Shown here: positions 11,860-54,804 of the stretch, piece after piece
How the letters are laid out: each line of letters starts with the position of its first letter
Numbering within the stretch: the first letter of the stretch is position 1
NCBI RefSeq assembly: GCF_900105785.1
Contig: NZ_LT629799.1
Span: 372,001 to 436,000, forward strand
Direction: 5' to 3'
DNA from: Microlunatus sagamiharensis
Lineage (GTDB): Bacteria; Actinomycetota; Actinomycetes; Propionibacteriales; Propionibacteriaceae
DNA length: 64,000 bases
Program-made: the position numbers and the translations under genes
Notes under the pieces: generated by a model
What the model was told of the DNA's origin: nothing
Seen by the model: the letters and a program-made list of their open reading frames with translations, nothing else
Databases searched by the model: none

Positions 11860-11912
11860 GGTCGTTCTCCTCGGGTCGTGCCGGCAGGTCGAGTTGGGGT
11901 GCGGGCCGGGGC

Positions 11913-12611
11913 TCAGGGAGCCGCCCGGCGCAGGATCGGGGGGTGGAGCAGGGTCGCGCCACCGTGCTCGTACGTCGCGGCCGGTCTGCCGCGTCCGCTC
12001 GAGCGCTGCTCGGCGGTGCGGCGGACGAAGCCCTCCGAGCCGAGCACCTTGCGGTGGAAGTTCCCCGGGTCGAGGGACCGGCCCCACACGACCTCGTAGA
12101 CGTGCCGGAGCTCGGCGACGGTGAAGGTCGGCCCCACGAAGGTCGTGGCCAGGGCGGTGTACTCGAGCTTGCTCCGGGCCCGGTCGACGCCCGCCTCGAG
12201 GATCGCGTGGTGGTCGAAGGCGAGAGGCTCGTCGAGCGCCGCCGAGACGGGTTCCCAGCGTGCGGCCGCCGCGTCGGTCCCCGCGACCGGGACGGGCAGC
12301 GCGGGCAGGGCGGCCAGGTAGGCGACGGACACGACGCGGCCCCGGGAGTCGCGATAGGGCGCACCGAAGGTGGCGACCTGCTCGAGGTGGGCGGGCTCGA
12401 CGTCGACGCCGGTCTCTTCGCGCAGCTCGCGGCGGGCGGCGTCGGGCAGGTCCTCCTCCTGGCGCACGAACCCGCCGGGCAGCGCGAGTGAGCCCCGTTG
12501 CTCCCTGGCACCGCGCTCGACGAGCAGGACCTGCAGCGCGTCGTCGCGAACGGTCAGCAGCACCACGTCGACGGTGACGTAGACGGGTGGGTACTCCGAC
12601 TCGTACGTCAT
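11913..12611 (-). CDS. Nudix hydrolase with C-terminal winged helix (NrtR-like)
   Basis: A 232-residue protein from ATG 12611. The Nudix box is LPGGFVRQEEDLPDAARREL followed by REETGV, within residues about 45-70, and it retains the RExxEE-type core. Residues about 155-225 form a winged-helix-like region (FTVAELRHVYEVVWGRSLDPGNFHRKVLG) as in NrtR, where a Nudix-like domain senses ADP-ribose and the C-terminus binds DNA. Because the catalytic motif is intact, the protein may hydrolyse ADP-ribose, regulate, or both. It sits 5 bases after the YbjN-like gene and 53 bases before the ADP-ribosylglycohydrolase. A TTGTC-N5-GACAA palindrome upstream of the operon is a candidate operator. Confidence 0.85.
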   Translation of the reverse strand: MTYESEYPPVYVTVDVVLLTVRDDALQVLLVERGAREQRGSLALPGGFVRQEEDLPDAARRELREETGVDVEPAHLEQVATFGAPYRDSRGRVVSVAYLAALPALPVPVAGTDAAAARWEPVSAALDEPLAFDHHAILEAGVDRARSKLEYTALATTFVGPTFTVAELRHVYEVVWGRSLDPGNFHRKVLGSEGFVRRTAEQRSSGRGRPAATYEHGGATLLHPPILRRAAP

Positions 12612-37777: not shown

Positions 37778-39565
37778 TCAGCGGCCCTTCACCCGTCGGT
37801 GGCCGGCGTCCTGGCGCACGGTCCAACCGCGGCGGTCGAGGTGCTCGAGCAGCGGGATCGCGACGCGGCGGGTGGTGGCGAGGGCGAGGCGGGCCTCGCT
37901 GGTGGTGAAGGGCTGGGGCAGCGCGGCGAGCACCCGCATCGCCCGGGCCGGCCCGTCGGGGAGCAGCACCATGTCCGGGGCCAGCCGGACCACGCGCCCG
38001 ACGCGCTCCGCCGCGGCCAGCTCGGCGACGCCGAGGCCCCAGGCCTCGAGCTCGGGCCGCTCGGGCGCCGCGAAGGGCGCGGCGGCCAGGTGCGCCTCGA
38101 GCCGGGCCATCCCGGCCTCGGCCGGGCCGAGGTCGCGGTCGGCGCCCGGACGTCCGACCCGGCCCTCGGCGTACGCGAGCCCGGCCGCCTCGGCGAGCGG
38201 GGCCAGCAGGGACCGGTCGGGCAGGCCGAGGTGGCGCCGGGCCGCGTCGGCGGTGAGGCGCGGGTCGAGCGGGGTGCGGGCGGCCTGCGCGTCGACGGCC
38301 GTGGCGAGGTCGGCGGCCCAGCGCTCCCAGGTCGGCGGGTCGACGAGCCAGTCGCCGACGGTGCGGACCCGGCTCGGGTCGGTCGTCGGCACGCCCTCGG
38401 TCGCGAGGTCGGCGGCGCGGACGGCACCGGCCCGGCGGACCCGGTCGGCCAGCACGGCGGCGTGGTCGTCGGCGTGCGCGAGGTCGCGGGCCCGGGCGGC
38501 GGCCGCGCCCCGGCGCGAGAGCGCCGGCGGGGCGGTGTCGAGGACGACGGCTCCGGCGGCGACGGCGTGCCGTCCGGGGTCGCGCAGCACGAGCCGGTCG
38601 CCGGGCTCGACGGCCAGCGGGTGGTGGAGGGTCAGGCGGACCATCTCGCCGTCCAGCGGGCGGAGCCGGACGGGGACCGCGGCGGTGCCGAGGTGGGCGA
38701 CGAGCTCGGCGGGCAGGTCGGTGGCGCCGGCGTCGGGGTCGTGCGGGCGGACGCGGACGTCGAGCAGGTCCGTGGTCGACCAGGCGCCCGGGCTCAGCAG
38801 CGCGTCGCCGCGGCCGACCTGGTCGACGTCGACACCGCGCAGGTTCACGGCGACGCGGGCCACGGCGGGCACCGCGGTGGCATCCGAGCCGAGGCTCTGC
38901 AGGCCACGCACGCTGACCGTCCGGCCACCCAGCGCAAGGGTGTCGCCGACGCGCAGGGTGCCGCCGCCGAGGGTGCCGGTGACGACGGTGCCCGCCCCGC
39001 GGATGGTGAAGGCACGGTCGACCCAGAGCCGTACGCGGCCGTCGGTGCGGGGCGTGGGCAGGGTGGCGACGAGGTCGAGCAGGGCCTGGCGCAGGCGGGG
39101 GAGGCCGGCGCCGGTCGCGCCCGAGACGGCGACCGCGGGCACGTCGCCGAGGCTGGAGCGGGCGATCCGCGCCCGGGCCTCGGCGGTCGCGGCCGCGGGA
39201 TCGGCGAGGTCGCTGCGGGTGACGACGAGCAGGCCGGTCGTGAGGCCGAGCGCGTCGACCGCCGCCAGGTGCTCCTCGGACTGGCGCCGCCAGCCCTCGT
39301 CGGCCGCCACGACGAACATCACCGCGGGCGCAGGGCCGAGCCCGGCGAGCATCGAGGCGATGAACCGTTCGTGCCCGGGCACGTCGACGAAGGCCAGATC
39401 GGTTGACGCCGCGCCCTCGCTGACGCGCGTCCAGGCGTAGCCGAGGTCGATGGTCATGCCGCGCCGCTTCTCCTCGGCGAAGCGGTCGGGCTCCATGCCC
39501 GTCAGGGCGCGGACCAGGGTCGACTTGCCGTGGTCGACGTGGCCGGCGGTGGCGACGACGTGCAC
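37778..39565 (-). CDS. selB: selenocysteine-specific translation elongation factor SelB
   Basis: A 595-residue protein from GTG 39565, four bases after the selA stop. The G1 motif ATAGHVDHGKSTL is at the N-terminus, followed by DVPGHERFIASML (G3) and VVTRSDLADP (the NKxD equivalent, here TRSD). Elongation-factor domains II and III follow. Residues about 400-595 form the winged-helix repeats that bind the SECIS hairpin (TSEARLALATTRRVAIPLLE near the end). SelB delivers Sec-tRNA to in-frame UGA. Together with selA, selD and tRNA-Sec in the same region it makes the pathway complete. Confidence 0.96.
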   Translation of the reverse strand: MHVVATAGHVDHGKSTLVRALTGMEPDRFAEEKRRGMTIDLGYAWTRVSEGAASTDLAFVDVPGHERFIASMLAGLGPAPAVMFVVAADEGWRRQSEEHLAAVDALGLTTGLLVVTRSDLADPAAATAEARARIARSSLGDVPAVAVSGATGAGLPRLRQALLDLVATLPTPRTDGRVRLWVDRAFTIRGAGTVVTGTLGGGTLRVGDTLALGGRTVSVRGLQSLGSDATAVPAVARVAVNLRGVDVDQVGRGDALLSPGAWSTTDLLDVRVRPHDPDAGATDLPAELVAHLGTAAVPVRLRPLDGEMVRLTLHHPLAVEPGDRLVLRDPGRHAVAAGAVVLDTAPPALSRRGAAAARARDLAHADDHAAVLADRVRRAGAVRAADLATEGVPTTDPSRVRTVGDWLVDPPTWERWAADLATAVDAQAARTPLDPRLTADAARRHLGLPDRSLLAPLAEAAGLAYAEGRVGRPGADRDLGPAEAGMARLEAHLAAAPFAAPERPELEAWGLGVAELAAAERVGRVVRLAPDMVLLPDGPARAMRVLAALPQPFTTSEARLALATTRRVAIPLLEHLDRRGWTVRQDAGHRRVKGR

Positions 39566-39569
39566 GAGC

Positions 39570-40883
39570 TCAGCCCCGCGCGGGGTCGAGGTGGACGGCC
39601 CGGACGGCGTCGGCGACGTAGGCGTCGTCGGCCGGGTCCACGCAGCGCAGGTCGACCAGGCAGCGGCCGCGCTCGACGCGGGCGACGACGGCGGGCTCGC
39701 CGGTGCGGAGGGCGGCGGCGTACGCGGTGGGCAGCGCGACGGCCCAGCCGGGGAGCTCGAGCCCGGGCGCTCCGCCGCCGCCGACGGCACCGGCGCTGGG
39801 CACGACCTCGGCGTCGACCGCGCCGGCGAGGTCGGCGGCGAGCGCGTCGCAGCGGTCGCGGAGCGCGCCGGGGTCGGCGTGCAGGCCCGACCAGGTCGGC
39901 GTCCGCGGTCCGCGCAGCGTGGCCTCGAGGGCGGCGAGGGTGAGCTTGTCGACGCGCAGCGCGCGGGCGAGCGGGTGGCGGCGCAGGCGCTCGACGACCG
40001 CCGTACGCCCGAGGAGCAGGCCGGCCTGCGGTCCGCCGAGGAGCTTGTCGCCGCTGCCGGTCACCAGGTCGGCCCCGGCGCGCAGCGCGGTGTCGGCGTC
40101 GGGCTCGTCGGGGAGCAGCGGGTCGGGGACCAGGAGGCCGCTGCCGAGGTCGGCGACGACGGGGACGCCGAGGCCCGCCAGGGCGGCCACGTCGACCGAG
40201 GACGTGAAGCCGTCGACGCGGAAGTTGCTGGGGTGCACCTTGAGGATGCAGCCGGTCTCCGGGCCGACCGCGTCGGCGTAGTCGGCGAGGTGCGTGCGGT
40301 TCGTCGTGCCGACCTCGCGCAGCCGCGCGCCGGTGGACTCGATGAGGTCGGTCAGGCGGAAGCCGTCGCCGATCTCCACGAGCTCCCCGCGGCTGATCAC
40401 GACCTCGCGGCCGGCCGCCAGCGCGGTGGTGGCGAGGACGAGCGCCGCGGCGCCGTTGTTGACCACGTGCACCGCCTCGGCGGCCGGGACGGCGTCGGTG
40501 AGGGCGGCGAGCGTCCCGCGGCCGCGGCGGGCCCGAGTCCCGTCGGCGAGGTCGAACTCGACGTCGGTGTACCCCGCCGCGGCGACCAGCGCCTCGACGG
40601 CGGCGGGGGACAGGGGTGCGCGGCCGAGGTTGGTGTGCAGGACCACGCCGGTCGCGTTGACGACGGTTCGGGTGCTGGAGGCGGCGGCGGGGAGGGCCTC
40701 GACGGCCGCGTCGGCGACGGCCTCGGGTGCGAGCTCGCCCGCCCGGGCCCGCTGCTGCGCGGCGACGACGGCGGCCTTGACCAGGTCGGCGCCGAGCCGG
40801 TCGGCGGCGGCCCGCAGCCGGGGGTCCGCGAGCAACCGGTCGGTGCGCGGGACCAGGCGCCGGGGGTCTGCCGTGGTGCTCAC
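39570..40883 (-). CDS. selA: L-seryl-tRNA(Sec) selenium transferase SelA
   Basis: A 437-residue PLP enzyme from GTG 40883. The PLP lysine is K280 in GSGDKLLGGPQAG. VVNATGVVLHTNLGRAPLS, EVGTTNRTHLADY and KVHPSNFRVDGF are family signatures. It converts Ser-tRNA(Sec) to Sec-tRNA(Sec) with selenophosphate. The C-terminal GRCLVDLRCVDPADD is also conserved. The MscS-like gene upstream ends 11 bases before the start, so co-transcription with it, and possibly with tRNA-Sec, is likely. selB follows after four bases. Confidence 0.97.
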   Translation of the reverse strand: MSTTADPRRLVPRTDRLLADPRLRAAADRLGADLVKAAVVAAQQRARAGELAPEAVADAAVEALPAAASSTRTVVNATGVVLHTNLGRAPLSPAAVEALVAAAGYTDVEFDLADGTRARRGRGTLAALTDAVPAAEAVHVVNNGAAALVLATTALAAGREVVISRGELVEIGDGFRLTDLIESTGARLREVGTTNRTHLADYADAVGPETGCILKVHPSNFRVDGFTSSVDVAALAGLGVPVVADLGSGLLVPDPLLPDEPDADTALRAGADLVTGSGDKLLGGPQAGLLLGRTAVVERLRRHPLARALRVDKLTLAALEATLRGPRTPTWSGLHADPGALRDRCDALAADLAGAVDAEVVPSAGAVGGGGAPGLELPGWAVALPTAYAAALRTGEPAVVARVERGRCLVDLRCVDPADDAYVADAVRAVHLDPARG

Positions 40884-40893
40884 GGCCCCGATC

Positions 40894-41982
40894 CTAGGAA
40901 GGCGTGACCAACGAGGCCGGTGGCTCGACCTCGGCCCGGGGCGCCGGGGCCACGAGCTCGACGCGCTGACGGGGCAGCCCGCCGGCCTCGGCGTGGTCGC
41001 GCGCCCAGGCGACCAGGCCCTCGCGGACCCGGCAGCGCAGGTCGAAGAGCGTCGAGGCGTCGGTGGCGCTGACCAGCACGCGCACGCGGACGAAGCCGCC
41101 GGTCGCGTCGGTGACGGCCAGCGAGCTGCTGCGGCCGTCCCACAGCGCGGTGGTCGCCAGGATCTCGTCGAGCCGCGTCCGCAGGCCGTCCACGTCGACG
41201 CGCCAGTCGAGGTCGAGCTCGACCGCCCCGACGAGCTCGGAGGTGCGCCGGGTCCAGTTCTCGTACGGCTCCTTGGTGAAGTAGCCCGAGGGCAGCACCA
41301 GGCGCCGGTCGTCCCACAGGTGCACGACGACGTAGCTGAGGGTCAGCTCCTCGATCCGGCCCCACTGCTGGTCGACGACCACGACGTCGTCGATGCGGAT
41401 GGCGTCGGAGAAGGCGAGCTGGATCCCGGCGAAGACGTTGGCCAGCGTCGACTGCGCCGCGACGGCGCCGACGACGCTCAGGAGGCCGGCCGACGCCAGC
41501 AGGCTGGCGCCCACCGCACGGACGCCGGGAAAGCTCAGCAGCGCCGCCCCCAGGGCGATGAGGACGACGAGCGCGACGGTGAGCCGCCGGATGACGAGGA
41601 CCTGCGTCCGCAGCCGTCGCGCGTTGCGGTTGTCCGAGACGTCGGTGCGGTAGCGCTGCAGCCCGAGGTCCTCGAAGTAGAGCAGCAGCGCCCCGACGAA
41701 CCACGCCACGGCGCCGATCGAGGCGAGGCGCAGGACGAGCTCGACGCCCTCCCAGATGTTCGGCGGGACCTGCTGCGGGCGCGAGGTGCGGACCACGACC
41801 GCGATCACGAGGACGACGGCCAGGAGCCGGAAGGCGGTCGCGGTCGAGCGCGACAGGAAGCCGACGAGCGGCCAGCGGCGGGCGAGGAGGGTCGCGACGA
41901 CGTGGACGACCACGACGCCCACGAGGGTGACGAGCAGGGCGAGGAGCAGGGTCAGGGCGAAGTCGGTGAACGTGACGGCCAT
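40894..41982 (-). CDS. MscS-type mechanosensitive ion channel
   Basis: A 362-residue inner-membrane protein from ATG 41982. Four hydrophobic segments precede a pore-lining helix (SLLASAGLLSVVGAVAAQST), followed by the MscS beta domain (GIQLAFSDAIRIDDVVVVDQ; GRIEELTLSYVVVHLWDDRR; PSGYFTKEPYENWTRR). It opens under membrane tension to release solutes. It lies between tRNA-Sec and selA on the same strand, an unusual companion for the selenium genes; no functional link is known. Confidence 0.92.
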   Translation of the reverse strand: MAVTFTDFALTLLLALLVTLVGVVVVHVVATLLARRWPLVGFLSRSTATAFRLLAVVLVIAVVVRTSRPQQVPPNIWEGVELVLRLASIGAVAWFVGALLLYFEDLGLQRYRTDVSDNRNARRLRTQVLVIRRLTVALVVLIALGAALLSFPGVRAVGASLLASAGLLSVVGAVAAQSTLANVFAGIQLAFSDAIRIDDVVVVDQQWGRIEELTLSYVVVHLWDDRRLVLPSGYFTKEPYENWTRRTSELVGAVELDLDWRVDVDGLRTRLDEILATTALWDGRSSSLAVTDATGGFVRVRVLVSATDASTLFDLRCRVREGLVAWARDHAEAGGLPRQRVELVAPAPRAEVEPPASLVTPS

Positions 41983-42063
41983 GGCCCACAGGGTCCTCGC
42001 CCCGGCGCGGCCACGGAAGGGCGAGCCCGGGTGCGGGTCGAACCACAGTCGAGGCAGGGCTGG

Positions 42064-42159
42064 TGGCGGAGGCGGACGGGAATCGAACCCGCCAAGCCGA
42101 GCTGCTCGGCTTCACCGGTTTTGAAGACCGGGAGGGCCACCAGGCACCTGTACGCCTCC
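42064..42159 (-). tRNA. selC: tRNA-Sec (anticodon TCA), CCA encoded
   Basis: On the minus strand the gene begins GGAGGCGTACAGG and ends CGCCTCC-G-CCA, so the acceptor stem pairs GGAGGCG with CGCCTCC and the CCA is genomic. The anticodon stem-loop CCGGTCTTCAAAACCGG places TCA in the loop, decoding UGA. A long variable arm (AGCCGAG/CTCGGCT, 7 bp) and T arm GGCGGGTTCGATTCCCGTC complete a selenocysteine tRNA. It lies 82 bases upstream of the MscS-selA-selB group on the same strand and 83 bases from the divergent small membrane protein and selD. Confidence 0.96.
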
Positions 42160-42242
42160 ACGGCCGAGCGTAGCCGTCGCCGGACCTTGCCCGGCGCGAG
42201 CGGGCGGGGCGACACTGACCCCACCGACCACGAGGAGGCGGC

Positions 42243-42491
42243 ATGGGCGTGGTCGTCCGGCGTCGGGCGCTGCTGGTCGTGGGGGTCCTGCTCGTCCTGG
42301 GCTGCCTCGTGCCCCTCCTGCGGGCGAACGCCGCGGCCCGGGAGCGGGCCTGGTCGGAGCGGTGCACGCAGCGGGGCGGCGCGGTCTGGAGCGAACCCGC
42401 CGACACCACGAACCCGCTCGTGGTCCACACCGGTCACCCCCTCCTCAGCTGCGTGAGCGCCGACGGGGTGGTGGTGTCGGTCCGCGACTGA
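42243..42491 (+). CDS. small exported or membrane-anchored protein, function unknown
   Basis: An 82-residue protein from ATG 42243, with GAGGAGG upstream (CGAGGAGGCGGC). Residues 8-25 (ALLVVGVLLVLGCLVPLL) form a signal anchor. The rest is a soluble domain with two cysteines that may pair (RCTQRGGAVW, LLSCVSADG). It is not recognised. It ends 60 bases before selD on the same strand, so it may share the promoter for selD. Confidence 0.6.
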   Translation: MGVVVRRRALLVVGVLLVLGCLVPLLRANAAARERAWSERCTQRGGAVWSEPADTTNPLVVHTGHPLLSCVSADGVVVSVRD

Positions 42492-42551
42492 CTACGCCCG
42501 AGCCGCCGAGCGACGCCGGGACCGCGTACGCCGCCTGGCTACGTTGGGTGG

Positions 42552-43559
42552 GTGAGCACGACCGCGCAGACGACGACCGAGCCCGTACGGCTGACCCAGT
42601 ACGCCCACGGCGGCGGCTGCGCCTGCAAGATCCCGCCGGGCGAGCTGGAGGCAGTGGTCGCCGGCCTCACCCCGTGGTCGGACGCCAACCTGCTCGTCGG
42701 CCTCGAGACCGGCGACGACGCCGCCGTCGTGCGGATCGAGGGCGACCGCGCGATCGTCGCCACGACCGACTTCTTCACCCCGGTGGTCGACGACGCGTAC
42801 GACTTCGGCCGCATCGCCGCCGCGAACGCGCTGTCCGACGTCTACGCGATGGGGGCCACGCCGCTCGTCGCGCTGAACCTGGTCGGCTGGCCGCGCGACG
42901 TGCTGCCGCTCGAGCTGCTCGCCGAGGTCCTGCGCGGCGGGCTCGACGTCGCCCGCGAGGCCCAGGTGCACGTCGCGGGCGGGCAGAGCATCGACGACCC
43001 CGAGCCCAAGTACGGCATGGCCGTCACCGGGACCGCCGACCCGGCGAAGCTGCTGCGCAACGACGCCGCCGAGCCGGGCCTGCCGGTGAGCCTGACCAAG
43101 CCGCTGGGCGTCGGGGTGCTGAACAACCGGCACAAGGCGACCGGCGAGGTGTTCCGGCAGGCGATCGACTCGATGGTCCGGCTCAACGCCGACGCCTCGC
43201 GGGCGGCCCTGGCCGCCGGGGTGCGGGCGGCGACCGACGTGACCGGCTTCGGGCTGCTGGGCCACGGCTTCAAGATGGCCCGCGCCTCCGGCGTGACGAT
43301 GGTCGTCGACCACACGAAGGTCCCCTACCTCGACGGAGCGCGCGAGGCGCTGCGCGACGGCTACGTCAGCGGCGGGACGCGACGCAACCTCGACTGGGTG
43401 CGGCCGCACCTGTCGGCCGACGGGGTCGACGAGGACGAGCTGCTGCTCCTCGCCGACGCGCAGACCAGCGGCGGCCTGCTCGTCGTCGGCGAGGTCCCCG
43501 GGGCTCCGGTGGTCGGGGAGACCGTGGCCGCGGGCGAGCATGGGATCGTGGTCCGGTGA
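42552..43559 (+). CDS. selD: selenophosphate synthetase SelD
   Basis: A 335-residue protein from GTG 42552. The Gly-rich loop GGGCACKIP near 21-29 contains the catalytic Cys (not Sec) and Lys; GDDAAVV, DVTGFGLLGH and ADAQTSGGLLV are ATP and metal motifs of the PurM-like fold. It makes selenophosphate from selenide and ATP for SelA. The TGA overlaps the GTG of the Dabb gene, so those two are coupled. It is divergent from tRNA-Sec, giving a compact selenium locus. Confidence 0.96.
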   Translation: MSTTAQTTTEPVRLTQYAHGGGCACKIPPGELEAVVAGLTPWSDANLLVGLETGDDAAVVRIEGDRAIVATTDFFTPVVDDAYDFGRIAAANALSDVYAMGATPLVALNLVGWPRDVLPLELLAEVLRGGLDVAREAQVHVAGGQSIDDPEPKYGMAVTGTADPAKLLRNDAAEPGLPVSLTKPLGVGVLNNRHKATGEVFRQAIDSMVRLNADASRAALAAGVRAATDVTGFGLLGHGFKMARASGVTMVVDHTKVPYLDGAREALRDGYVSGGTRRNLDWVRPHLSADGVDEDELLLLADAQTSGGLLVVGEVPGAPVVGETVAAGEHGIVVR

Positions 43560-47593: not shown

Positions 47594-48907
47594 TCAGCGC
47601 CCGGTGGCACCCGCCTCGGCGCCCAGCGAACCCTCGGTCGCGGTCTTCCGGGTCCGGGGGATGCGGGTGATGAGGGGCAGGACGACACCGACGAGCGCGA
47701 TGATCCCGATCACGGTGTACGCCGTCGTGTAGGCCTTGTCCGGACCGATGAGCGAGGCGGTGATCAGCGGTCCGACGACGCCGCCGAGGCTCCACGCGAT
47801 CAGCATCAGGCCGTAGATCGCCCCGGCGAACTTCACGCCGAAGAAGTCGCCGGCCGTGGCCGGCATCGTGCCGAAGCTGCCGCCGTAGCAGAGGTAGATG
47901 AGAGCGGCGAGGACGAAGAAGAGCACCGCGTTGCCGACGTGGGGCAGCACCAGCAGGCAGACGCCCTCGATCGCGAGGATCGCGACGAACGTCGTCATCC
48001 GGCCGATGCGCTCGCTGATGGCGGCCCAGAAGATCCGGCCACCGCCGTTGAACAAGCCGAGGAACCCGACGGCGCTCGCGGCGCCGATCGCGGAGTAGCC
48101 GGCGATGTCGGTGAAGCTGGCCGCGGCCTGCGAGATGAGGGAGATGCCGGCCAGCACCGCGAGCGTGAGGATCGCCGTGAGGGCGTACCACTGCCAGGTC
48201 CTCATCGCCTCGCCCGGCGCGTAGTCCCGGCCGCTGTCGACGACGCGCCCGGTCGTCTTGGGCACGAAGCCCGGGACCGTGTAGCCCTCCGGCGGGTTCT
48301 TGAACTGCGACGCCCCGACCAGGCAGAGCACGAGGTAGGCGATGCCGAGGGGGAGGAAGGCCGCGGTGGGCTGGCCGGAGCTGCCCGCGATCAGCCGCTG
48401 CGCGACGGGGGCGGTGAGGACCGCGCCGAAGCCGAAGCCGCCGACCGCCAGGCCGGTGATGAGGCCCCGGCGGTCGGGGAACCACTTCTGCAGCATCGCG
48501 ATCGGCACGATGTAGGCCAGGCCGAGCCCGAAGCCGCCGATGACGCCGTAGCCGAGCACCAGCAGCCAGAGCTGGTCACCGCCCCGGGCGAAGGAGGCGA
48601 GGATCACGCCGATGCTGTAGAGCACGCCTCCGACCAGGGCGACGAGCCGCGGGCCGCGCCGGTCCTGGATGCGGCCGCCGATGTAGGTGCCGAAGAAGAT
48701 CACGCCGATCGTGACCTCGAAGGGGATGCTCGCCTGGACCTTGGTCAGCTTCCACGCGTCCGCGCCCTGCAGGGCCTTCGCGAAGACGCTCCACGCGTAG
48801 ACGGCACCGATGGCCAGCTGCAGCAGCAGCGCGGCGACGACGAGCCGTACGCGTCCCCGGGTCGGGTTGTCGCCGGCCGTCGCCGTCGGTGTGCTTGCCG
48901 TGCTCAT
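47594..48907 (-). CDS. oxalate/formate antiporter (OFA)-family MFS transporter
   Basis: A 437-residue, 12-helix membrane protein from ATG 48907, overlapping the NrfD-like stop (ATGA). The N-terminal motif LQLAIGAVYAWSVFAKALQG and GLGLAYIVPIAMLQKWFPDR are typical of the OFA family (oxalate:formate antiporter). A fused extra loop carries PPEGYTVPGFVPK. It is the fourth core gene of the formate dehydrogenase operon, so it likely moves formate or a formate-yielding acid. Transport specificity is inference. Confidence 0.9.
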   Translation of the reverse strand: MSTASTPTATAGDNPTRGRVRLVVAALLLQLAIGAVYAWSVFAKALQGADAWKLTKVQASIPFEVTIGVIFFGTYIGGRIQDRRGPRLVALVGGVLYSIGVILASFARGGDQLWLLVLGYGVIGGFGLGLAYIVPIAMLQKWFPDRRGLITGLAVGGFGFGAVLTAPVAQRLIAGSSGQPTAAFLPLGIAYLVLCLVGASQFKNPPEGYTVPGFVPKTTGRVVDSGRDYAPGEAMRTWQWYALTAILTLAVLAGISLISQAAASFTDIAGYSAIGAASAVGFLGLFNGGGRIFWAAISERIGRMTTFVAILAIEGVCLLVLPHVGNAVLFFVLAALIYLCYGGSFGTMPATAGDFFGVKFAGAIYGLMLIAWSLGGVVGPLITASLIGPDKAYTTAYTVIGIIALVGVVLPLITRIPRTRKTATEGSLGAEAGATGR

Positions 48908-50211
48908 GCAGTCGTCTCCTGGGAGGTCGTGGGTCCGGTGGTCGTCCGGGCGGAGTCCGCCGACGGTCCGGGACGTTGGCTGGTGGGCGGCACCGCGGGC
49001 TCGCGGCCGGCCGCCTGGGCCGCCCGCTTGGCGTCGAGACGCTCGCGCTGCGGGATGACGGTGTAGCGCGGGTCCCGGGCCGACTCCTGACCCGCCTCGA
49101 ACACCCCGAAACGGGTGCACACGGAGCCGGCGACGAGGGCGAGGCCGCTGACCACCGCGCCGGCGCGCGAGCGCCGGCCCAGCAGCAGGGCACCGGCCGC
49201 ACCGGCCGCGGTGAGGATCTTACTCGCGCGCATCAGCCGGCCGGGCGTCCCGAGGTGCAGCGCCTCCGCCGACAGCCCCATCGAGCCCTCCATGCGGTGC
49301 TCGACGACGAGCTCGACGGTGGCGCCGATGACGGCGAGCGCGCGGGCCGGGCCGGACTCCGCCAGCGGGGCCAGGGCCATGCCCAGGCCGCCCGAGGCCG
49401 CGGCGGCCGAGCCGACGAAGACGAAGGGCAGCTCGCGGTGCGCGTCGTGCCAGGCCGGGGTGGAGGTGTCGGTGAGCAGCACGGCCGTGTACGAGGCGAC
49501 CGCCGGGGCGAAGGCGGCGGCGACCAGCCCGGCCGGACGAGCCGAGACGTCGACGAGGTCGCTCACGACGCCAAAGCGCCAGGGCAGGAGCTTCAGGACC
49601 TCGGTCCCCGCCGCGAGGATGGCGAACGGCCCGTACGCGGACAGGATCCACGTGCCGACCGACATCGGCGACGTCGGCTTGAAGACCCGCAGCATGTTGT
49701 AGAACCGCTCGGGCCGGCCGAGGTCGTGCACGAGGGCCAGCAGGCTGGTGGTGATCCCGGCGGCCGCGACGATGCGCGAGTTGCGTCGCAGGTGCGGGCG
49801 CCCGCTCAGGTCGGCGCCCGCGGCGAGCAGCGTGGAGCCGCCCGCCAGGCCCCCGGCGAACAGGTAGAAGGGGATGTCGGCCTCCCACGGGGTGGCCTTG
49901 ACGACCTGGCGCCCGTAGTAGGAGGTGAAGGTCGCGTCGGGGACCATCATCTCCTCGGCGCGGCCCTTGCGGCGTCGTCCGCCGCCCTTCTTGCCGTCGC
50001 GACGGCCTCGCCCACCACCACCGGTACGCCGGGCCGTCGCGCTCGCGCTGCCCTGGCCCTCGGTGCCGGGCACGGCGCGGATCGCCGCGTCGGCCAGCCG
50101 GTCGCCGTCGCTTCGCTCCGGGTTGGCGGCCTTGCTGCCGCCCTCCTGCTGGCCGAGCTGGTAGTCGACGTCCCGGTCGTCGGACCGGGCGCCGTCGGCG
50201 TCCGGGCTCAC
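48904..50211 (-). CDS. NrfD/PsrC-type membrane subunit of formate dehydrogenase
   Basis: A 435-residue protein from GTG 50211, overlapping the Fe-S subunit stop (GTGA). The first 90 residues are a polar, basic cytoplasmic tail (RRTGGGGRGRRDGKKGGGRR). From about 95 there are several membrane helices; FYLFAGGLAGGSTLLAAGAD is the NrfD/PsrC signature, and RFYNMLRVFKPTSPMSVGTW is also typical. It should anchor the formate dehydrogenase and pass electrons to menaquinone; there is no haem motif. The C-terminal 60 residues are hydrophilic. Confidence 0.9.
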   Translation of the reverse strand: MSPDADGARSDDRDVDYQLGQQEGGSKAANPERSDGDRLADAAIRAVPGTEGQGSASATARRTGGGGRGRRDGKKGGGRRRKGRAEEMMVPDATFTSYYGRQVVKATPWEADIPFYLFAGGLAGGSTLLAAGADLSGRPHLRRNSRIVAAAGITTSLLALVHDLGRPERFYNMLRVFKPTSPMSVGTWILSAYGPFAILAAGTEVLKLLPWRFGVVSDLVDVSARPAGLVAAAFAPAVASYTAVLLTDTSTPAWHDAHRELPFVFVGSAAAASGGLGMALAPLAESGPARALAVIGATVELVVEHRMEGSMGLSAEALHLGTPGRLMRASKILTAAGAAGALLLGRRSRAGAVVSGLALVAGSVCTRFGVFEAGQESARDPRYTVIPQRERLDAKRAAQAAGREPAVPPTSQRPGPSADSARTTTGPTTSQETTA

Positions 50212-51353
50212 TTGCGGCCCGCCACGAACGCGGTGGCCGCCGCGGCCACGAGCCCGAGCGCCGCGAAGCCGGCGTTCTTCCACATCCGCGGCAGGTCGGC
50301 CGTGGTGACGATCGGGTCCGGCGGGAAGCCGTACACCTCGGGCTCGTCGAGCAGCAGGAAGAACGCGCCCGCTCCGCCGACGCCGCCCTCGGGGTCCTCG
50401 GCGTAGAGCTGGGCGCCCATGACGCCCGCCGCCTGGAGCGTCTCGACCCGCTTCTGCGCGCGCTCGCGGAGCTCGTCGACGTCGCCGAACTGGATCGACT
50501 GCGTCGGGCACGCCTGCGCGCACGCCGGAGTCAGGCCCTCGCCCAGCCGGTCGTAGCAGAGGGTGCACTTCTGGGCGACGCCGTGGTTGGAGTTGGCGAT
50601 GTCGTCCTTGGGCTTGTTCTTGTCGCCGATGCGGCGGTCGATCACGCCGAAGGGGCAGCCCGCCACGCAGTAGCCGCAGCCGTTGCAGACGTCGTCCTGC
50701 ACGACGACCGTGCCGAACTCGGTGCGGAACAGCGCGCCGGTGGGGCAGACGTCCAGGCAGCCCGCGTTGGTGCAGTGCTTGCAGACGTTCGAGGCCATCA
50801 GCCAGCGGAAGTCGGTCCGCTCGCCGGCCTCGGGCGACGCGCTCGGCAGGTCGAAGGCCGGCATGCCCAGGTCGACGAGCGGCTTGTCCGGCGCCTTGGC
50901 GGGTTTGAGCGAGCCGAACAGGTCGAGCGCGCTGTGGTCGGTGCCCGCGCTGCCGTCGAAGTCGGCGCTCAGCTCGCCGAGCACGACGTCGGCGCCGACG
51001 GAGGTCTCGGGAACGCCGATCGTGACGCCGGTCGTCTGCCCGCCGAGCGGCTTGCGCTGCTCGATGAACGCGACGTGGCGCCACGTGCTCGCGCCCAGGG
51101 CACCGGTGTTGTCGTAGGAGCTCCCGAGCAGCTCGTAGATGCCGTCCTGCGGCACCCCGTTCCACTCCTTGCACGCCACCTCGCAGGCCTTGCAGCCGAT
51201 GCAGATCGAGGTGTCGGTGAAGAAGCCCTTGCGCGACTCCGGCTGCTCCCAGCCGGCCCGGTGCGCGGGACCCTGGGGCGTCGCCGACGTGAACGCCTGG
51301 TCCGAGCCCCGGTGCGGGTCCGTGCCCCGGGTGGTGCCGATGTAGTCGTCCAC
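50208..51353 (-). CDS. formate dehydrogenase iron-sulfur (beta) subunit
   Basis: A 381-residue protein from GTG 51353, one base after the alpha-subunit stop. Four [4Fe-4S] clusters are predicted from CIGCKACEVACKE, CKHCTNAGCLDVCP, CNGCGYCVAGCPFG and CTLCYDRLGEG with CAQACP. A C-terminal hydrophobic segment (AGFAALGLVAAAATAFVAG) may anchor it to the membrane. It carries electrons from the molybdopterin subunit to the NrfD-type membrane subunit. A long linker (about 75-165) between the first and second cluster motifs is larger than in E. coli FdnH. Confidence 0.94.
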   Translation of the reverse strand: MDDYIGTTRGTDPHRGSDQAFTSATPQGPAHRAGWEQPESRKGFFTDTSICIGCKACEVACKEWNGVPQDGIYELLGSSYDNTGALGASTWRHVAFIEQRKPLGGQTTGVTIGVPETSVGADVVLGELSADFDGSAGTDHSALDLFGSLKPAKAPDKPLVDLGMPAFDLPSASPEAGERTDFRWLMASNVCKHCTNAGCLDVCPTGALFRTEFGTVVVQDDVCNGCGYCVAGCPFGVIDRRIGDKNKPKDDIANSNHGVAQKCTLCYDRLGEGLTPACAQACPTQSIQFGDVDELRERAQKRVETLQAAGVMGAQLYAEDPEGGVGGAGAFFLLLDEPEVYGFPPDPIVTTADLPRMWKNAGFAALGLVAAAATAFVAGRK

Positions 51354-51354
51354 G

Positions 51355-54300
51355 TCAGTCCCGTTCCTGCTTGTTCATCGCGTGCTTCTGGCCCCCGCCG
51401 TCGGCCCCGTCCCCGTCGGTGGCCCCGTCGGAGTCCTGACCGAGGTCGGCGTCCGTCAGGCGACGGTGCTGCCCGTTCGCGTCCTCCGGCGGGGTGCGGT
51501 GCTCGTTGCCCGTGGCCGTGGTGACCCCGGCCCGGGCCCGGTGCGCCGCGACGTACTCCAGCAGGGCCGGGCCGCGCGGGCGCCGTCCGGGCTGGATGTC
51601 GCAGGAGGCGACCTTGGTCTCCTGGATGTGCACGTTCGCGTCGAGCGTCACCCCGAAGAGGTCGTTCGCGGAGTCACCGGCCACGAGCGCCTCGGACCCG
51701 ACGCCCCAGTGGTAGGGCAGTCCGATCTGGTGCACCGTCCGGCCGGCGATCCGCAGCGGGGCGACCCGCTCCGTCACCAGCACACGCGCCTCGATCGCGG
51801 TGCGGGCGCTGATGATCGTCGCCCACCCCAGGTTCTCCAGGCCCCGCTCGCGGGCCAGCTCCGGGCTGATCTCGCAGAAGAACTCCGGCTGGAGCTCCGA
51901 CAGGTACGGCTGGAAGCGGCTCATCCCGCCGGCGGTGTGGTGCTCGGTGAGCCGGTACGTCGTGAAGACGTACGGGTAGAGCTCCACGCCCGGCTCGTCG
52001 CCCGACGGGTTCTGCAGGTTGTCCTCGCGCGGGAAGACCTCGCGCGTGGGGTTGGCCTGCTGGCGGTACATCGGGTTGCTGACCGGGGACTCCTGCGGCT
52101 CGTAGTGCGTCGGCATCGGGCCGTCGAGCAGCCCGGCCGGCGCGTAGAGCCAGCCCTTCCCGTCCGCCTGCATGATGAACGGGTCGTCACCGGCGAGGCC
52201 GTCGGGACCGGCGGCGCCCTCCGGCGGGCGGTAGGACGGGGCCTTGCCGACCTCGAAGTCCGGGACGTCGTGCCCGGTCCACTTCTGGGCCTCCTCGTCC
52301 CACCACACGTACGCCTTGCGCTCGCTCCACGGCTTGCCGTCGGGGTCGGCGGCGGCGCGGTTGTAGAGCGTGCGGCGATTCATCGGCCAGGCCCAGCCCC
52401 ACTCGGGGGCGACCCACGACTGCTCGCGGCCCGGCTTGCGCCGCATCGCCTGGTTGACCCCGTCGGCGTACACGCCGGTGTAGATCCAGCAGCCGCCCGA
52501 GGTGGAGCCGTCCGGCTTCATCTCGTTGAAGGTGTTGAGCGGCTGCCCGGCCTTCTCCCCGGTGAGGTGGAAGCCGTTGATCTCGGCCAGCACCGCGGCC
52601 GCGGAGATCTCCCCGTCCTCGTCGAGCGGGTAGTCCCAGGTCAGGTCCAGCAGCGGACGGTCGCGCGGGTCGGTCGAGCCCGCCAGTCGCTGGCGGATCT
52701 TCTGCCCGAGCAGGTAGAAGAACTCGAGCTCGCTCTGCGCGTCGCCGGGCGGGTCGACCGCCTTGTGGTGCCACTGCAGCATCCGCTGCGTCTGGGTGAA
52801 GGTCCCGCCCTTCTCCACGTGCGAGGCCGCCGGGAAGAAGAACACCTCGGTGTCGATCTCGTCGGTCTTCAGCTCGCCGGTCTCGATCTCGGGACCGTCG
52901 GACCAGAAGGTCGCCGACTCGATGAGGTTGAGGTCGCGGACCACCAGCCACTTGAGGTGGGACAGGCCCATCCGCTGCATCTTGCCGTGGGCCGAGCCGA
53001 CGGCCGGGTTCTGCCCGAGCAGGAAGTAGCCGTCGATCTCGTCGCGCAGCATCGACATCACGGTCGCGTACGTGCCGTGGTCGCCCGTGAGGCGCGGCAG
53101 GTACTGGAAGGCGAAGTCGTTCTCCTCGGTCGCCGCGTCGCCCCACCAGGCCTTGAGCAGGCTGGTGGTGTAGCTCTTCGCGTTGACCCAGAAGCCCTTC
53201 TGGTGCGGGCTGGCGATCTCGGCCACGTACTCGTCGAGCGAGTCGTGCGGCCCGACCTTGGGCATCGGCAGGTAGCCCGGCAGCAGGTTGAACAGGGTCG
53301 GGATGTCGGTCGAGCCCTGGATGCTGGCGTGCCCGCGCAGCGCGAGGATGCCGCCACCGGGACGCCCCATGTTGCCCAGCAGCAGCTGGATGATCGCCGA
53401 CGTCCTGATCATCTGCACGCCCACGGTGTGGTGCGTCCAGCCGACGGAGTAGACCCAGGCGGTCGTGCGCTCGCGGCCGCTGTTCGCGGTCACGGCCTCG
53501 CACACCTCGAGCAGCTGCTCGGGGGAGATTCCGCAGGTCTCCTGCACCATCTCGGGGGTGTAGCGGGCGAAGTGGCGCTTGAGCACCTGGAACACCGTGC
53601 GCGGGTGCTGCAGGGTCTCGTCGCGGCGGACCTCGCTGTGGTCCAGCGCCGCACCGTGGCCGCCGAGCTCGTGGCCCGCCCCGCGATCGCTCTCGGACTC
53701 CTCGGACTCCTCGCCCCCGTTGGCGCCGTCCCCCTGCTTGGCGCCCTCGGGCTCCGACGCAGGACCACCGCCGGCGGAGTGCTCGCCGACGCCCTCGTAG
53801 GACCAGCTCGCCGTCTCGTACGTGCCCGTCTCCGGGTCGTAGCCGGAGAAGACGCCGTCGAGGTCGTCGACGTCGCGGAAGTCCTCGCTGACTAGGGTCG
53901 CCGCGTTGGTGTAGGCGGCGACGTAGTCGTGGAAGTACTTCCCCGTGCTGAGGATGTAGTTGATGATCGCGCCGAGGAAGACGATGTCGCTGCCGGCGCG
54001 GATCGGGACGTGCGTATCCGCCACGGCCGACGTGCGCGTGAAGCGCGGGTCGATGTGGATGACCTTGGCGCCGCGCGCCTTGGCCTCCATCACCCACTGG
54101 AACCCGACCGGATGGCACTCGGCCATGTTCGAGCCCTCGATGATGATGCAGTCAGACTGCTGCAGGTCCTGCAGAAAGCTCGTGGCGCCGCCACGGCCGA
54201 ACGAGGCTCCCAGACTGGGAACCGTGGCGCTGTGTCAAATACGCGCCTGGTTCTCGATCTGGATGGCGCCCATCGCGGTGAAGAGCTTCTTGATCAGGTA

Positions 54301-54804
54301 GTTCTCTTCGTTGTCGAGGGTGGCGCCGCCCAGCGCGGCGATGCCCATCGTCCGGCGCAGCGGACGACCCTCCTCGTCGGTGTGCTGCCAGCGCTTGCGG
54401 CGCGACTCGACCATGCGGTCGGCGATCATGTCGGTCGCCTCTTCGACGCCGATCCGCTCCCACTGGCGGCTGCGCGGACGGCGGTAGAGCATCGTCGTCG
54501 CCCGGCCGGGGGAGTTGACGAGCTGCTCGCTCGCCGAGCCCTTGGGGCACAGCCGGCCCCGGGAGACGGGGGAGTCCGGGTCGCCCTCGATCTGGGTGAC
54601 GCGGCCGTCCTTCACGAACACCCGCTGGCCGCAGCCCACGGCGCAGTACGGGCACACGCTCTGCACGACCTTGTCGGCCGTCGCGGTGCGCGGGGTGATC
54701 GCCCGCGTCTTCGGCGACTGCACCGCGTTGCCGCGGCCCAGCAGGTCGCCCCCCGTGAGCTGCCGCAGCACCGGCCACTCCAGGAACGTCTTCTTGATGT
54801 CCAT
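51355..54804 (-). CDS. fdhA: formate dehydrogenase catalytic subunit with selenocysteine (in-frame TGA 54235-54237)
   Basis: About 1149 residues from ATG 54804 if TGA at 54235-54237 is read as selenocysteine (residue 190). Before it: [4Fe-4S] CPYCAVGCGQ and RLCPKG (C51, C54, C58, C86) and the end ENQARI. After it: HSATVPSLGASFGRGGATS and MAECHPVGFQWVMEAKARGA, matching the sequence around the active-site Sec of FdnG-type enzymes (NQARVUHGP...AAEAHPVGF). A SECIS-like hairpin follows the TGA. The cofactor is a Mo/W bis-molybdopterin. There is no twin-arginine signal, so it should stay in the cytoplasm. An acidic low-complexity insert lies near 53650-53815 and the C-terminus is a hydrophilic tail. 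Confidence 0.95.
53650..53815 (-). other. acidic low-complexity insert within fdhA
   Basis: The stretch encodes Gly/Glu/Asp/Ser-rich sequence (GEESEESESDRGAGHELGGH) between conserved core segments GYDPETGTYE and the conserved RTVFQVLKRHFARYTPEMVQ. It is absent from the canonical E. coli layout as far as I can recall and is likely a surface loop. Confidence 0.6.
54190..54234 (-). promoter_or_regulatory. SECIS-like hairpin directly after the fdhA UGA
   Basis: The transcript forms an outer 7-bp stem (GCCACGG/CCGTGGC) and an inner 5-bp stem UUCCC/GGGAG, whose apical loop is AGUCU. The apical GU-containing loop is 20-odd bases after the UGA, similar to the GGUCU loop of E. coli fdhF and fdnG, which SelB recognises. 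The position and loop support recoding of UGA. Confidence 0.8.

Follow-up and report, generated by a model that had tools for sequence, protein, structure and literature searches.

An in-frame UGA codon, very probably read as selenocysteine, in a formate dehydrogenase gene of Microlunatus sagamiharensis

The formate dehydrogenase locus

The window analysed here is a stretch of 64,000 nucleotides of contig NZ_LT629799.1 of Microlunatus sagamiharensis (assembly GCF_900105785.1). It carries the fdhA gene, which encodes the alpha subunit of a formate dehydrogenase, and, 3' of it, the genes for a beta subunit, an NrfD-type subunit and an MFS transporter. The features of this locus are the following:

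51355..54804, minus strand: fdhA, formate dehydrogenase alpha subunit, 1149 residues including the proposed Sec190 (NF041513, TIGR01553 and Pfam matches)
54235..54237, minus strand: UGA codon 190 of fdhA, very probably read as selenocysteine (frame, register with fdnG, homologues)
54205..54223, minus strand: predicted bacterial SECIS hairpin, nt 15-33 when the U of the UGA is nt 1 (fold, covariation, G23-U24 conservation)
50208..51353, minus strand: fdhB, iron-sulphur beta subunit (TIGR01582 FDH-beta at 171.7 bits, below the cut-off of 334.7; Fer4_11 at 76.1 bits, above its cut-off)
48904..49950, minus strand: NrfD-type membrane subunit, probable gamma subunit (PF03916 NrfD at 72.3 bits, above cut-off)
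47594..48907, minus strand: MFS transporter of the monocarboxylate (lactate / oxalate-formate) type (NF049980 at 402.5 bits, cut-off 320)

The start of fdhA is the ATG at 54804 on the minus strand, with AGGAGG directly 5' of it. From there to 51355 the frame comprises 189 open codons 5' of the UGA and 959 codons 3' of it, and it closes with a terminal TGA at 51355. The internal TGA is codon 190 of this frame, the residue number given by an earlier note on this DNA. When read through the UGA, the product matches NF041513 (formate_DH_Act) over residues 6-1090 with 1947.1 bits (cut-off 1400). This single match spans the UGA and bears out the note's view that the open frames on either side of it form one enzyme. 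TIGR01553 is matched with 948.5 bits (cut-off 814.2), and PF04879, PF00384 and PF01568 (Molybdop_Fe4S4, Molybdopterin and Molydop_binding) all score above their cut-offs, so that the Fe4S4, molybdopterin and dinucleotide-binding domains are all found in the product. By sequence, the nearest solved chains are 1h0h_A and then 1kqf_A (E. coli FdnG), and several of the next-nearest ones are named selenocysteine-containing formate dehydrogenases. A profile search of the genome itself returned a single match above the cut-off, fdhA, with only one internal TGA. The closest named relative, among the best 80 of at least 594 candidates in a scan of genome contigs, is from Microlunatus endophyticus (76% over the best segment), and comparison with the family revealed nothing that sets the product apart from NF041513. 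From these matches, fdhA is expected to encode the catalytic subunit of a formate dehydrogenase that uses molybdenum (or tungsten) and is associated with the membrane.

Among the neighbours, the fdhB product has TIGR01582 as its best NCBIfam match. The ATG start of the MFS transporter gene was chosen by eye, and its score was obtained with a longer mechanical open reading frame (47594-49120). No twin-arginine pair was found ahead of the first Cys motif of the alpha subunit (54804-54625, minus strand); a cytoplasmic active site is therefore possible. A word search found RR within 60 residues N-terminal to the Cys motif in 26 of 93 homologues (3 of 96 lacked the motif), a noisy count that also reads sequence 5' of the starts.

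The UGA codon and its hairpin among homologues

The sequence context of codon 190 is QARIUHSATV, in the register of E. coli fdnG TGA196. The TGA at 54235-54237 thus stands, as the earlier note had proposed, at the Sec position of FdnG-type enzymes, Sec196 in E. coli, where the residue binds the metal. It is followed by the sequence GGUUCCC-AGUCU-GGGAGCC, which folds into a 7-bp stem with the apical loop AGUCU at nt 22-26 (54216-54212), the loop sequence that the note had read. The spacer between the UGA and the loop is 18 nt, and the minimum free energy of the 19-mer (nt 15-33) is -11.6 kcal/mol. The serine codon AGT, used once in the 1150 codons of fdhA, is found exactly in this loop, while AGC is used 22 times. 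For bacterial SECIS elements, PMC13188914 describes a model with an apical loop of 3-9 nt on an upper stem of 4-16 bp (5 nt, or 3 if the A-U pair closes, and 7 bp in fdhA), with a G in loop positions 1-2, mostly as N1-G-[G/U]-N-N2 with N1 and N2 paired (A-G-U-C-U with an A:U pair), with 16-37 nt from the UGA to the loop (18 nt) and with a minimum free energy of -7.5 kcal/mol or lower (-11.6 kcal/mol). The hairpin agrees with this model in loop and stem size, loop sequence, spacing and energy. Its folding z-scores are -1.1, -0.8 and -1.0, values that are ordinary for a sequence of its composition. Since energy alone is uninformative at a z-score of about -1, comparison between homologues was used as the test.

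Three samples of homologous loci were assembled. The first came from an even draw of 147 genomes of the same family out of a larger group; 28 of these 147 carry the enzyme above the cut-off. To these were added 80 loci from the contig scan, a sample that leans to close relatives because it holds the best 80 of at least 594 candidates. A phylum-wide search of 198 genomes yielded 36 above the cut-off, and 29 of these loci were fetched (L119-L147). Five loci that do not carry the site were left out, namely L002-L004 (another gene of the same genome) and L032-L033 (pieces), and L044 and the ten loci with TAG, which the site pattern had missed, were read separately. In all 28 family genomes, the homologue above the cut-off has exactly one internal stop, a TGA. 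Over the 108 loci formed by these 28 and the best 80 of at least 594, the Sec site is TGA in 97, TAG in 10 and TGC in 1; phylum-wide, it is TGA in 28 of 29 loci and TGC in the remaining one.

A few side observations concern the codons of these homologues. In L044, which is metagenome-derived, the codon is UGA and Leu replaces the His that follows Sec. Homologues from six genomes (G199, G222, G337, G251, G272 and G288) and locus L141 contain TAG or TAA besides TGA, the TAG of L141 lying 59 codons 3' of the Sec site; these extra stops could reflect errors, gene decay or genuine ends. L143-L146 have two TGA codons each, the second about 850 codons further on and close to the gene end.

Hairpin statistics were restricted to 96 UGA rows, which represent 65 distinct 42-mers and are not independent, since L009 and L034, for example, share identical 60-mers. 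The null expectation came from 300 synonymous resamplings of these rows, with codon usage taken from the open frame, which possibly starts 5' of the true start. G23-U24 is kept in 96 of 96 rows, where the resamplings gave 7.8 on average and 16 at most, and is invariant despite the free third base of the codon and a GC3 of 92%. All seven stem pairs are formed in 51 of the 96 rows (at most 14 in the resamplings). Just 52 rows form the outermost pair, 15:33, while each of the other six is present in 95 or 96. Pair 18:30, both bases of which are third codon positions, occurs as U-A (33), C-G (51), U-G (10) and G-U (2), a compensatory change at two synonymous sites. Pair 21:27 is C-G in all 96 rows, becomes G-C through synonymous changes in L122, L123, L127 and L131, and is U-G in L145. 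Pair 17:31 is a U-U mismatch in one of the 96 rows and in L121. In contrast, both homologues with a Cys codon (TGC), L098 and L119, have lost U24, and of the six pairs from 16:32 to 21:27 two are broken in L098 (counted by eye) and three in L119. The genus label of the L119 genome is also that of G220 and G242, which keep the UGA and the hairpin. Conservation, covariation and these two losses indicate that the hairpin persists where recoding of a stop codon is needed and has decayed in the two Cys cases.

Position 17 of the hairpin deserves separate mention, as U17 has a role in the E. coli SECIS. In the fdhA hairpin U17 faces G31 and the stem is continuous. More generally, U17 faces A or G in the actinobacterial fdhA hairpins, and it is paired in 132 of 135 stop-codon rows when the 19 nt are folded in isolation; of the three rows that differ, one has the fold of E. 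coli fdnG, which had been included as a control. In this set, L116 repeats the L017 site by coordinates, and L013, L089 and L098 were missed by the pattern. Conservation of U17 in itself proves nothing, because it falls on the middle base of a conserved Val codon. It is a speculative and rather unlikely reading of these folds that the E. coli rule has a lineage-specific variant, in which the SelB of the actinobacterial lineage would recognise a bulge-free hairpin. No paper on SelB and a bulged U17 of the SECIS was found in the open-licence literature.

The ten TAG loci (L047-L053, L076, L088 and L111, among the 28 family loci and the best 80 of at least 594) retain the SECIS hairpin and an intact GGUCU loop. 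They come from Modestobacter (6), Blastococcus (2), Geodermatophilus (1) and Goekera (1), all genera of the Geodermatophilaceae. No open-licence paper on UAG and selenocysteine that names both Geodermatophilus and Blastococcus was found. A search with ARAGORN of these ten loci and the two Cys-bearing ones, limited to the loci themselves, found no tRNA genes. UAG-encoded Sec in the Geodermatophilaceae is already published: PMC5330540 mentions it, with a tRNA-Sec of anticodon CUA, citing Mukai et al. 2016.

Selenium machinery and alternative readings of the UGA

The same window contains the genes for Sec synthesis and decoding:

42068..42159, minus strand: selC, tRNA-Sec with anticodon TCA (ARAGORN, 42064-42159; Rfam RF01852 at 81.6 bits, gathering score 47)
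42552..43559, plus strand: selD, selenide, water dikinase (TIGR00476 at 394.9 bits, cut-off 125)
39570..40883, minus strand: selA, L-seryl-tRNA(Sec) selenium transferase (TIGR00474 at 420.5 bits, cut-off 267.9; PF03841 at 331.6 bits)
37778..39565, minus strand: selB, Sec-specific elongation factor, with a GTG start picked by eye (TIGR00475 at 263.1 bits, cut-off 242.25)

The Sec-decoding trait is complete, as selA, selB, selC (UCA anticodon) and selD all lie within 37778-43559. SelD has a Cys in its GGGCACK motif. The match of SelB to TIGR00475 spans positions 2-361 only of the 581 in the profile, and the GTP_EFTU, Beta-barrel_SelB and SelB-wing_3 domains of Pfam, the last a winged helix at the C-terminus, all score above their cut-offs. 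FdhD, the usual maturation factor, is encoded elsewhere in the genome. ARAGORN also called a tRNA-Leu (CAG) at 11901-11990 on the plus strand, where no Rfam family reaches its gathering score; it is possibly a false call.

Among the 147 family genomes, tRNA-Sec accompanies the enzyme. At 66 bits or more, a line of our own placed in the score gap between 66.5 and 48.7 bits, it is found in 26 of the 28 genomes with the enzyme above the cut-off and in 4 of the 119 others (Fisher p 1.8e-22, uncorrected for relatedness). At the Rfam gathering score of 47, 37 of the 147 genomes pass, and the seven additional ones score 47.1-48.7 bits and have no enzyme above the cut-off. The two genomes with the enzyme and no strong tRNA-Sec are G062, which is 59% complete, and G117. 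Conversely, G068 and G073 have tRNA-Sec with pieces of formate dehydrogenase only, and G135 and G142, both fragmented assemblies, have a tRNA-Sec of 67 bits and no FdhA match above the cut-off; FdhA may be missing from the latter two assemblies, or they may have other selenoproteins. SelB exceeds its cut-off in 21 of the 147 genomes, all of them among the 28 with the enzyme. In the seven other enzyme genomes it is below the cut-off, by less than 7 bits in four of them (G074, G085, G107 and G138).

These data bear on two other explanations of the UGA. One takes it as a genuine stop, or as an error of sequencing, which would make fdhA a split pseudogene. Both halves are intact, however, and are matched by one model, and the single internal UGA recurs in 28 of 28 family homologues above the cut-off and at the same site in the 97 of 108 and 28 of 29 loci described above; with a covarying hairpin and a full set of sel genes nearby, this explanation is exceedingly improbable, even though a standard six-frame reading does break fdhA at 189 codons. 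The earlier note was right to warn of such a split if the UGA is taken as a stop. The other explanation, that near-cognate decoding places a standard amino acid (Trp or Cys) at the UGA while the hairpin merely stimulates readthrough, is hardly more probable. It is at odds with the two homologues that encode Cys with TGC and have a broken hairpin, with the way tRNA-Sec tracks fdhA in the family genomes, and with the presence in the window of a tRNA-Sec of matching anticodon. Pseudogene, sequencing error and generic readthrough were accordingly rejected on the grounds of homologues, covariation and co-occurrence.

The preferred reading is that the UGA at codon 190 of fdhA is a selenocysteine codon, to which we assign a probability of about 0.97 on comparative sequence grounds. 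Sec insertion is supported by the homologues, by the compensatory changes, by a hairpin that has broken down in both Cys homologues, and by the full Sec-decoding gene set in the window. Nothing that contradicts it was found in the homologues, the hairpin, the machinery or the co-occurrence. In this mechanism, SelD and SelA from the same window would make selenophosphate and Sec-tRNA. SelB carrying Sec-tRNA(Sec) (anticodon UCA) would bind the G-U-containing loop 18 nt 3' of the UGA and deliver Sec at UGA190 ahead of the release factor, and Sec190 would be the expected ligand of the active-site metal that oxidises formate. The interaction of SelB with the hairpin, Sec insertion, metal ligation and formate oxidation are most likely by analogy with E. 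coli and other formate dehydrogenases. For annotation, the case matters because a UGA taken as a stop would cut a real enzyme in two, and fdhA illustrates clearly how a selenoprotein gene can lie close to complete selenium machinery.

Comparison with known systems

A close counterpart is FdnG of E. coli (formate dehydrogenase-N, Sec196; 1kqf), whose gene shares with fdhA the AGUCU loop and its distance from the UGA; 26 of 42 nt are identical. Two differences can be noted. In the fold predicted for E. coli fdnG, U17 has no partner, whereas it lies opposite G31 in the fdhA hairpin. Furthermore, E. coli FdnG has an N-terminal twin-arginine pair, and none is found at the N-terminus of the fdhA product.

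Within the Actinomycetota, the account in PMC7176365 of A. chiangmaiensis DSM 45062 offers a close parallel. Its Sec-FDH1 is described as a membrane-bound alpha/beta/gamma formate dehydrogenase with a predicted Sec and, among the Sec-FDH clusters of this organism, is placed in one together with SelA and SelB; formate removal is selenium-dependent. The likeness to the present locus lies in an alpha/beta/gamma formate dehydrogenase with Sec and in SelA and SelB in the cluster; it differs in belonging to another genus and in that SelD is listed without a cluster name. More broadly, the formate dehydrogenase alpha subunit (in 822 organisms) and SelD are given as the most widespread bacterial selenoproteins in PMC5029168, whose table 2 includes Microlunatus phosphovorus as a Sec-using actinobacterium. 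The tRNA-Sec of that species, it has been suggested, may serve formate dehydrogenase and nothing else (PMC3534718). To judge by the match to Microlunatus endophyticus, this is probably the trait of a relative. Exchange between Sec and Cys in FdhA, with SECIS remnants, has also been reported (PMC1794560). With Sec-containing formate dehydrogenases and the Sec trait in actinobacteria both published, a UGA-encoded Sec with its hairpin, as read here in fdhA, is a well-known arrangement and the case is already known.
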